Shown here: in pieces, positions 385 to 30,997 of the stretch
How positions within the stretch are numbered: position 1 is the first letter of the stretch
How the letters are laid out: every line of letters starts with the position of its first letter
Source: Candidatus Omnitrophota bacterium
GTDB lineage: Bacteria > Omnitrophota > Gorgyraeia > Zapsychrales > Zapsychraceae
Length of the DNA: 45,313 bases
NCBI GenBank assembly: GCA_023247445.1
Contig: JAHFGL010000017.1
Span: forward strand, 1-45,313
Reading direction: 5' to 3'
Translations under genes and position numbers: made by a program
Notes under the pieces: generated by a model
Told to the model about the DNA's origin: nothing
The model's input: the letters and a program-made list of their open reading frames with translations, nothing else
The model's database searches: none

Positions 385-1119
385 ATGGCCGAAGTCCGCA
401 AAATTGGGGAAGAGTATTTTGTTGAATATTATGCGCAGGGGCTTTTATTCCGTAAGATTGGTGGGAAAACCCTCGAGGAAGCCCAACAGGTTTTAAAGAA
501 AATCGAAGACAGCCTACCAGACCAACACCACTGGTATAAAACAAGAGAAGATCCTTTTAATGATGTTTTTACAAATTTTTTAAAATTAGTTGAGTCAGAG
601 TATTCACCTATCACCTATGCCAGATTTGACGCTGTAACCCAAGATTTTAAACGATTTTTATCTTTAAACTTTCCCCAATATAAATTAATATCGCACATAA
701 CGCCGATCGTTATTAGCCGCTACGTTAGCTATTTATCAGCAGAATTAAATTTGAAGAATGATCGAAAGAAATCGCGGTACATCAATTTTTCTTTACTGCT
801 CTTATCAGAAATTTTTAGTCAAGCCATCAATTGGGGCGCTGTTAATGACAATCCTGTTTTACATATCAAACCATTTGGGCGGCAATATTTGAGTCGGTCT
901 TCACGCGTTGCTATTGATATTGATTTTAGTTCTTTAAATAGCGATGATCTTCAAAAAAAGAATTTGGCGCCGAATGTAAAGAAACAGTTGGCTCGACATT
1001 TAATTGAACGGGGAGTAAGGTTGATTCAAATTTTAAAATGGCTAGGAATTTCTGATATCGGGCGATTTTGTTATTTTGGTGAGACGGTGTTTGGGTGTTT
1101 TGAGAAGAAGATTTCTTAG
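385..1119 (+). CDS. Tyrosine-recombinase-like protein lacking the catalytic core
   Basis: The 244-residue product resembles the front of a phage-type integrase. Residues 1-50 look like an arm-type DNA-binding domain. Residues 55-160 are helical like a SAM-like core-binding domain and end in NDNPVLHIKPF, the usual junction to the catalytic domain. The catalytic domain (normally about 180 residues with R-H-R-Y) is reduced to about 70 residues. Its end (ARHLIERGVRLIQILKWLG) resembles the LRHTFATHLLERG...LGH block, but there is no convincing first Arg or final Tyr. It is therefore probably unable to recombine DNA. It could be a decayed integrase or a domesticated DNA-binding remnant. The start at 385 fits the promoter just upstream. 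A tRNA-Ser, a common integrase target, follows 300 bases later. Confidence 0.6.
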   Translation: MAEVRKIGEEYFVEYYAQGLLFRKIGGKTLEEAQQVLKKIEDSLPDQHHWYKTREDPFNDVFTNFLKLVESEYSPITYARFDAVTQDFKRFLSLNFPQYKLISHITPIVISRYVSYLSAELNLKNDRKKSRYINFSLLLLSEIFSQAINWGAVNDNPVLHIKPFGRQYLSRSSRVAIDIDFSSLNSDDLQKKNLAPNVKKQLARHLIERGVRLIQILKWLGISDIGRFCYFGETVFGCFEKKIS

Positions 1120-1123
1120 AGTT

Positions 1124-1394
1124 GAGAGGTGTCTGCCCTGGCGTACTTTGACTTAAGTAGCTTTTAACAAAGTACGTCCCCGTAGCACAGCGAAGGGGAC
1201 TACTATAAAAGATTTGTTGGGTGGTGTCTGCCTTGACGTATTTTGTTTAAACTTATGGAACGAAGTGAACATAAGTTTTAGCAAAATACGCTCCGAAGAA
1301 CGTAGTGATGAGGAGTTACAACAAGCTTAAAATTGAAGAGGTGTCTGCCCTGACTTATCTAATATGATTTTTGTAGTCAGGACTGCACCTCTCC
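1124..1394 (+). repeat. Array of three tRNA-5'-end-mimicking hairpin repeats
   Basis: There is no gene between 1120 and 1427. Instead three units begin with a copy of the downstream tRNA-Ser 5' end. GAGAGGTGTCTG occurs at 1124-1135, GGTGTCTG at 1223-1230 and GAGGTGTCTG at 1338-1347; the tRNA has GGAGAGGTGTCTG at 1428. Each is followed by CC(C/T)TG(A/G)C and a hairpin. Unit 1 has CGTACTTTG (1142-1150) with CAAAGTACG (1168-1176). Unit 2 has CGTATTTTG (1237-1245) with CAAAATACG (1282-1290), and a nested AAACTTATG (1249-1257) with CATAAGTTT (1270-1278). Unit 3 has CCTGACT (1349-1355) with AGTCAGG (1375-1381), plus an outer GAGGTG (1338-1343) with CACCTC (1386-1391). Units 1 and 2 differ by a compensatory C-G to T-A change. 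Function unknown. Confidence 0.7.
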
Positions 1395-1436
1395 TTATCT
1401 AAATATATTTTTTGTTTAATTATTGTAGGAGAGGTG
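1386..1436 (+). promoter_or_regulatory. Alternative hairpin that would sequester the tRNA-Ser(CGA) 5' end
   Basis: CACCTCTCC at 1386-1394 is perfectly complementary over 9 bases to GGAGAGGTG at 1428-1436, the mature tRNA 5' strand. Six of the same bases also close the upstream hairpin with GAGGTG at 1338-1343, so the two pairings exclude each other. The intervening loop begins TTATCTAAAT and ends TTATTGTA, the same loop style as in the upstream hairpin. A role in tRNA processing is inference. Confidence 0.5.
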
Positions 1437-1514
1437 TCTGAGTGGTTGAAGGTAGCGCTCTCGAAAAGCGTTGCCCCCGCAAGGGGGCCGTGAGTTCGAA
1501 TCTCACCCTCTCCG
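1428..1514 (+). tRNA. tRNA-Ser(CGA)
   Basis: An 87-base class II tRNA. The acceptor strands are GGAGAGG and CCTCTCC with discriminator G. The anticodon stem-loop is GCGCT-CTCGAAA-AGCGT, giving anticodon CGA. The long variable arm has a CCCCC/GGGGG stem, and the T-arm is GTGAG-TTCGAAT-CTCAC. No CCA is encoded. Confidence 0.95.
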
Positions 1515-1525
1515 TATTATTACAA

Positions 1526-1621
1526 GAGACCCTGGGTTCTCTCGACTTTTCTAAAATCTGTGGCAGTCGAGACCCCGCTTACCACAGATGTGAGAGAAGC
1601 GGGGGAATCCCAGCCTCTCCG
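1526..1621 (+). other. Kissing-hairpin element A inside a split T-arm-like sequence
   Basis: The sequence reads CTGGG-TTC, an insert, then GAAT-CCCAG and CCTCTCCG. The ends look like a T-arm plus the acceptor 3' end of tRNA-Ser, cut open in the T-loop. The insert holds three perfect 8-bp helices in the order a-b-a'-c-b'-c'. Helix a is TCTCGACT 1540-1547 with 1565-1572, helix b is ATCTGTGG 1556-1563 with 1582-1589, and helix c is CCCCGCTT 1573-1580 with 1597-1604. Helices a and c are adjacent hairpins, and b joins their two loops as a kissing interaction. I know of no named RNA family with this layout. Whether it is RNA or a DNA-level palindrome is not settled. Confidence 0.6.
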
Positions 1622-1632
1622 TTGATTTAAAA

Positions 1633-1729
1633 GAGTAGGAAGAGTTCTCTCGCCTTTGCTAACATCTGTAGAAGGCGAGACCCTGCTTACAGCAGATGGA
1701 AGAAAAGCAGGGGAATCTCACCTTCTCCG
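1633..1729 (+). other. Kissing-hairpin element B, diverged copy of element A
   Basis: Same order of parts as element A. GAG-TTC (1642-1647) and GAAT-CTC (1713-1719) flank the insert. Helix a is TCTCGCCTT 1648-1656 with 1672-1680. Helix b is CATCTG 1663-1668 with CAGATG 1693-1698. Helix c is CCCTGCTT 1681-1688 with 1705-1712. Helices a and c carry base changes relative to copy A on both strands, so pairing is kept while sequence changes. The 3' end (CTCACCTTCTCCG) again imitates the tRNA-Ser 3' end. From 1730 to 1797 I see only an AT-rich stretch with a CTCAAAGGGCTCCG motif (1746-1759) also found near 31.17 kb. Confidence 0.6.
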
Positions 1730-24193: not shown

Positions 24194-24282
24194 TACTCAG
24201 TTGATAAGGGCAAACCTAGGGTAACCTAGGGACGCAAAGCTAAAGGGTCCATTGGGGGGACAGCCAGCTACCAAAATGAGTA
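24194..24282 (+). ncRNA. c-di-GMP class I (GEMM-I) riboswitch aptamer
   Basis: The conserved blocks are present in order: AAGGGCAAACC (24206-24216), a CCTAGGGTAACCTAGG hairpin, GGACGCAAAGC (24230-24240), a GGGTCC...GGGGGGACAGCC helix and CAGCTACC. P1 is TACTCA (24194-24199) with TGAGTA (24277-24282). The middle G of AGGGCAAACC corresponds to the c-di-GMP-type guanine, not the adenine of cGAMP-binding variants. AAAATGA (24274-24280) can instead pair with TCATTTT (24284-24290), which excludes P1. This may be the switch element, although it does not overlap the terminator stem. Confidence 0.9.
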
Positions 24283-30798: not shown

Positions 30799-30898
30799 TA
30801 AATCCAAAGTTTTTACTCAAAAGACAGCATATTTTCCCTGGAATAATATTTTGTTTATGTTATTCTATACCGCGTTTCAAAAAGAATTGAATAATGAA

Positions 30899-30997
30899 AG
30901 GTGGCTGCCCTGACTTTTCTAAATGATTTTATTGAAGTCAGGACTACCACCTCTCTTTTCTGGATGTATTGTTTTTATATTGTTTGTGGAGAGGTGG
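30899..30997 (+). promoter_or_regulatory. Mimic/anti hairpin leader of tRNA-Ser(GGA)
   Basis: AGGTGGCTG (30899-30907) copies the tRNA 5' region. AGGTGG (30899-30904) pairs with CCACCT (30947-30952), and the inner CCTGACTT (30909-30916) pairs with AAGTCAGG (30935-30942). CCACCTCTC (30947-30955) is also perfectly complementary to GAGAGGTGG (30989-30997) in the tRNA. Compared with the Ser(CGA) leader, both arms have changed together to follow this tRNA's own sequence. Confidence 0.6.

Follow-up and report, generated by a model that had tools for sequence, protein, structure and literature searches.

Twin hairpins in tRNA loops: a probable small mobile element of Omnitrophota bacteria

Large islands classically dock at tRNA genes, and in the attC arrays of integrons a tyrosine recombinase is combined with folded, variable-stem hairpin sites in tandem. 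REPINs or REP doublets are small non-autonomous dispersed units of two inverted hairpins, imperfect palindromes present in many copies, and RAYT (Y1) transposases move them (PMC3116915). The double-hairpin elements of organelle genomes (e.g. PMC5910586) are pairs of adjacent variable-stem hairpins acting as small mobile DNA. In the tRNA/tmRNA islands, e.g. at ssrA of Dehalococcoides (PMC3146451), tandem insertions stand behind an intact RNA gene, each bounded by a direct repeat of its 3' end. The element described here has likenesses to all four kinds and fits the full definition of none.

Like a REPIN or a MITE, it is short, non-coding and dispersed in many copies, with two inverted palindromes per unit; unlike REPINs, it targets tRNA loops, its stems vary freely with covariation, and the aligned copies show no conserved tetranucleotide tag of the REP (GTAG) type. 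It differs from the organelle elements by its place in a bacterial chromosome, by its fixed point in the T-loop and by the host tRNA 3' end repeated beside each copy. As in integrative elements, every insertion has at its border a direct repeat of the tRNA 3' end, with the tRNA left intact, but the element itself encodes no integrase, and compared with islands its units are small (about 100 bp), gene-free, built on T-loop hairpins and spread over at least 23 tRNA species. With attC arrays it would have in common folded variable-stem hairpin sites in tandem arrays and a tyrosine recombinase, here a candidate; it differs from them in having no cargo genes, in using tRNA loops instead of attI and in a candidate recombinase that is partly degenerate, the homologues of which have a Phage_integrase domain (three tested) with the catalytic residues partly lost.

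The window, that is the whole stretch of 45,313 nucleotides of a Candidatus Omnitrophota genome that was analysed, carries two such units behind tRNA-Ser(CGA) (Table 1). Each consists of two adjacent perfect hairpins set between the TTC and the GAAT of a copy of the T-arm and acceptor 3' strand. Unit A reads linker, CTGGG-TTC, two adjoining 8-bp hairpins, GAAT-CCCAG and CCTCTCCG, and unit B is laid out in parallel, AAGAG-TTC ... GAAT-CTCAC followed by CTTCTCCG. The two are 81% identical over 86 nt, with compensated pair differences in helix a (A-T to C-G) and in helix c (C-G to T-A). The original prediction had placed twin elements at 1526-1729, with the coordinates and helices that we find, had seen in their flanks the T-arm and acceptor of a tRNA-Ser opened between TTC and GAAT, and had proposed covariation in helices a and c. 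The flanks CTGGG-TTC / GAAT-CCCAG and CCTCTCCG indeed agree with the tRNA-Ser(CGA) directly upstream, and the covariation was confirmed on homologues, the stems of which are 99.3% paired with double changes. Compared with shuffled sequences, A folds far lower (z -6.6), with minihelix-like ends, and B moderately lower (z -1.9). No family of the Rfam covariance models matches the unit. Rfam also gave a c-di-GMP-I-GGC riboswitch (RF03167) at 24200-24276 of the window and a Group I intron (RF00028, 107 bits) at 1043-1227 of locus L227, near a unit-bearing tRNA-Gly; intron-like sequence was seen by eye ahead of the 3' half of tRNA-Met-like genes at L228 and L240.

Table 1. Features at the tRNA-Ser(CGA) locus, in window positions
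Feature	Position	Strand	Basis
Tyrosine-recombinase-like ORF (244 aa) that retains the core-binding domain, with a deletion of the catalytic middle	385..1119	+	Pfam Phage_int_SAM_5
tRNA-Ser 5'-end copy	1124-1135		direct repeats D2, D3
tRNA-Ser 5'-end copy	1219-1230		direct repeats D2, D3
tRNA-Ser 5'-end copy beside leader hairpin	1336..1347	+	direct repeats D2, D3
Leader hairpin, related single-hairpin family (H1)	1345..1386	+	R2 52 bits
CACCTCTCCT, complementary to tRNA 5' strand 1427-1436	1386..1395	+	inverted repeat I6, 10 bp
Host tRNA of the array, tRNA-Ser(CGA), intact	1428..1514	+	ARAGORN; Rfam RF00005 48.6 bits
Unit A, span	1526-1621
Unit A, linker	1515..1531	+	sequence reading
Unit A, T-stem 5' strand CTGGG and T-loop start TTC of tRNA 3'-end copy	1532..1539	+
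Twin hairpin A: stem a TCTCGACT/AGTCGAGA, stem c CCCCGCTT/AAGCGGGG	1540..1604	+	R1 113 bits
A, helix a / a'	1540-1547 / 1565-1572
A, helix c / c'	1573-1580 / 1597-1604
A, b / b'	1556-1563 / 1582-1589	+	complementary, unconserved
Unit A, GAAT, T-stem 3' strand CCCAG, acceptor 3' strand copy CCTCTCC, G73	1605..1621	+
Unit B, span	1634-1729
Unit B, linker	1622..1639	+	sequence reading
Unit B, T-stem 5' strand AAGAG, TTC	1640..1647	+
Twin hairpin B: TCTCGCCTT/AAGGCGAGA and CCCTGCTT/AAGCAGGG	1648..1712	+	R1 111 bits
B, helix a / a'	1648-1656 / 1672-1680
B, helix c / c'	1681-1688 / 1705-1712
Unit B, GAAT, T-stem 3' strand CTCAC, acceptor copy CTTCTCC, G73	1713..1729	+

The helix order first proposed, a-b-a'-c-b'-c', also joined the two loops by a kissing helix b. 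Stems a and c and the T-arm flanks hold, but the kissing is private to A and B. Their loops are complementary over 8 bp in A, which is reached in 0.0008 of loop shuffles, and over 6 bp in B (0.015). In 17-20 homologues the longest loop-loop run has a mean of 3.9 within elements against 4.0 between unrelated elements, and the proposed helix b is paired in only 61% of alignment cells, against the near-complete pairing of both stems; hence we rejected kissing loops as a conserved trait. In related doublets elsewhere in the genome both hairpins are inverted copies of one loop family, and this explains loop complementarity without any kissing function. Adjacent doublets with loop-loop complementarity were also seen at L107-L114, mostly inside a GAAGGATCTC..GAGATCCTTCG repeat hairpin.

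R1, a covariance model with A and B as its sole input, gives no hit outside this locus in its own genome. Among 55 relatives it has matches in 21, full-length for the most part and in several cases arranged as tandem pairs like A and B. Nearly all the reliable matches read T-stem, TTC, a TCCCGC..GCGGGA hairpin, a CCCCGC..GCGGGG hairpin, RANT, T-stem, acceptor strand, and many stand directly behind tRNA-Ser, Leu, Thr, Pro or Asp genes. A second, later model (R3) matches in 45 of 285 Omnitrophota genomes, all from the window's own class, and adds sites behind Gly, Lys, Glu, Gln, Met, Arg, Val, Ala and Ile tRNA genes. For 35 of the 71 R3 hits fetched, a same-strand tRNA ends at most 150 nt upstream (chance would give about 0.15%); the remaining hits have a tRNA 3' end that ARAGORN did not call, or no visible tRNA. 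Many homologues lie in T-loops, others in D-loops, and the loop belongs either to a tRNA gene or to a 3' copy of one. The feature is real and wider than the original prediction suggested. In the literature on tRNA-associated repeats in Omnitrophota we found no description of it, and as a mobile element it is apparently undescribed so far.

Sites with and without units can be compared inside one genus (g4). The tRNA-Ser(gga) is followed by two units in G031 and by none in G003; the tRNA-Leu(gag) is followed by two units in G003, by one in G029 and by none in G025 and G027. At the occupied sites the flanking sequence continues immediately behind the final acceptor copy. The displaced T-arm of G003 and G029 (GGAGG/CCTCT) is of the type found on the unoccupied tRNAs while the occupied tRNA has another T-arm, and one twin hairpin occurs in different T-arm contexts. 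Empty sites are by themselves compatible with gain as well as with loss. Together with the many homologues in T-loops, these comparisons support well the idea, already voiced for A and B, of an insertion unit targeting T-loops. Other loops are also hit: tandem tRNA-Val bodies are interrupted in the D-loop and the T-loop beside an intact tRNA-Val in G040, a tRNA-Arg body of G037 has its interruptions in the anticodon loop and the T-loop, and a reversed twin hairpin lies inside a D-loop in G010. The intact copy may stand downstream or upstream of the interrupted one, and several interrupted copies show decayed acceptor stems.

We measured the tRNA parts of the units on 43 clean cases, which cover 23 anticodon species. 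Between the acceptor copy and the neighbouring tRNA, 7.74 of 8 nt are identical, as compared with 3.84 after shuffling (0 of 2000 shuffles as high). In G251 the units of tRNA-Glu(ttc) and tRNA-Glu(ctc) have closely related twin hairpins, and each unit has the acceptor end of its own host. The T-stem differs from that of the adjacent tRNA in 37 cases and mostly is still paired: where both sides of a pair were changed, 51 pairs were kept and 7 broken, and where one side was changed, 11 were kept and 20 broken, mainly in the two outer pairs. The finder accepted a T-stem only with 3 or more of its 5 pairs, which biases the counts upward; the double changes are still notable. The insertion point is almost always C56/R57 and the hairpin type almost always the same.

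We consider it probable that the units A and B represent a non-coding twin-hairpin element which is mobile, has its place in tRNA loops and is moved in trans. It consists of two adjoining GC-rich hairpins, about 65 nt here, and is set between C56 and R57 of tRNA T-loops, at times in D-loops. The occupied site is an interrupted T-arm with an acceptor 3' strand beside an intact tRNA copy, usually placed upstream; since an intact copy stands beside each occupied site, the tRNA survives. The tandem tRNA 3' ends behind tRNA-Ser(CGA) would be the record of two insertion events. Movement may take place as a folded single-strand hairpin site, in the way of REPINs or attC sites, on which a recombinase would act in trans.

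The identity of the acceptor copies could also come from plain tandem duplication with deletion between repeats, and the paired, compensated T-stems could reflect selection on an RNA. Such an RNA might be a functional tRNA trailer, of which the extra T-arm and acceptor strand would rival the 3' part of the tRNA itself or attract a processing enzyme, the twin hairpin being part of a switch. Conservation over the class behind at least 23 tRNA species, the compensated T-stems, the minihelix-like ends of A and a weak wobble bias of the sense strand (39 G-T against 23 A-C, p=0.03, a value sensitive to false hits) all agree with this reading. We nevertheless hold it to be unlikely, because units are present or absent at orthologous tRNAs within a genus, because some changes in the acceptor copies break pairing with the tRNA 5' strand, and because twin hairpins also occur in D-loops and in whole tRNA bodies with decayed ends.

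Quite unlikely is passive decay, where slippage would duplicate tRNA 3' ends and common genomic hairpins would land at random in the expendable copies. One would expect from it tandem units with identical linkers, as seen at L227, and the many dispersed related hairpins, but neither a near-constant insertion point and hairpin type nor T-stems that mostly stay paired, and these argue that insertion and duplication are coupled. Finally, the transcript could lose the insertion as it would a tRNA intron or intervening sequence, with the interrupted T-arm as part of a functional tRNA. An intact tRNA of the same anticodon stands beside or inside the interrupted copies examined, A and B do not contain a whole tRNA body, the acceptor stem is decayed in several interrupted copies, and the Rfam search at the unit gave neither a group I or II signature nor any self-splicing core or splicing motif. 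This makes the intron very improbable, even though the joined flanks of related insertions, e.g. Leu(cag), Cys and Val, are tRNAs valid for ARAGORN.

The twin-hairpin element, as we prefer to read A and B, has relatives among single hairpins (H1) that flank many tRNA genes of this genome, with the consensus CNGC-CCTGAC-TTTTCTAAAT..TTGGTA-GTCAGG-ACTG. With their model (R2) the genome gives 86 hits when E up to 1 is allowed, and 33 of 55 genomes have hits. When E is limited to 1e-3, 61 hits are left, of which 41 lie at most 350 nt from a tRNA where less than 1 is expected, the model having been trained on tRNA-flanking copies. One exact degenerate H1 pattern gave 4 stretches in a collection of 84,980 species, in Omnitrophota MAGs only, and viral contigs gave no match to the exact patterns tried. 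Hairpin a scores E 0.0096 with the order-wide leader-hairpin model and has the loop pattern in common, which hints at the link to a tRNA-leader system suggested originally. Leaders in the window (30895-30990 and 1330-1436) and at L004 and L021 show a copy of the tRNA 5' end, a covarying hairpin and then a strand complementary to that end, as if two structures competed for the tRNA 5' strand; at L142 (G050 C3) a tRNA-Gln leader unit stands in tandem with a period of about 94 nt.

Away from tRNAs, the two hairpins of a doublet either adjoin or are spaced, and in the spaced doublets the 3-bp flanks match (e.g. CGG/CGG, CCG/CCG, TGG/TGG). Spaced doublets also hold whole tRNAs inside tRNA genes of the same isotype: Val(cac), Leu(cag) and Cys in the window's own genome (L042 (G000 C23), L005 (C61) and L009 (C38)), and, in relatives, Val(tac) in G022 (L134), Arg(acg) in G035 (L141) and, by sequence reading only, Arg(acg) in G032 (L153). 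These insertions are bounded by hairpins, most with 3-bp flank duplications of the CAG/CTG type, and the joined outer halves are called as tRNAs by ARAGORN in 5 of 6; the junctions were joined by hand, as automatic excision with a 3-bp flank rule caught few cases. At L129 (G032 C98, 3627-3702) the end C72-A73-CCA of a tRNA-Phe seemingly comes from the start of an inserted hairpin element (CACCATCTTTCC). No tRNA-Glu(UUC) is called in the window's genome (G000), owing to an assembly gap or to an interrupted gene.

The units, at about 100 bp, have no room for a gene, and we found no autonomous copy of the element. The tyrosine recombinase beside tRNA-Ser is a candidate for the trans-acting enzyme, degenerate in this genome: the ORF matches Phage_int_SAM_5 just below the family cut-off (E=1.9e-4) and, compared with its homologues, is without the catalytic middle. 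Homologues, mostly about 340-350 aa long and with a Phage_integrase domain in three of three tested, lie upstream of tRNA-Ser in 8 relatives of several families, and upstream of tRNA-Ser only. A twin hairpin stands right behind the recombinase-linked tRNA-Ser in the window, G026, G033 and G040. Where this arrangement occurs, the genome has more H1 hairpins (p=1.5e-5, uncorrected for phylogeny and with an H1 model from this genome). Against these points, the position of the recombinase could be explained by conserved gene order, its clade has lost the histidine of the LGH motif and in some members Arg I also, and most of genus g4 has units without the recombinase gene. A Y1/RAYT transposase is unsupported as a discriminating partner, Y1_Tnp (PF01797) being found in 232 of 285 genomes with no hit in the unit-bearing G010, G118 and G171. 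As a larger scheme, which we put forward tentatively and think rather unlikely as a whole, an integron-like system would use tRNA T- and D-loops as attachment sites: the recombinase linked to tRNA-Ser would insert folded twin hairpins and build arrays of displaced 3' ends while the intact tRNA is regenerated, and whole replacement tRNAs would enter tRNA genes of the same isotype by way of related spaced hairpin pairs.

In a whole class of uncultured Omnitrophota bacteria, it seems to be the very loops of the tRNAs that a miniature hairpin element uses, and the displaced tRNA ends would be a readable record of its insertions. If the link with the recombinase is true, tRNA genes would be the basis of a recombination system with hairpin sites, from which tRNA duplication, T-arm exchange and the nesting of tRNAs within tRNAs would naturally arise.
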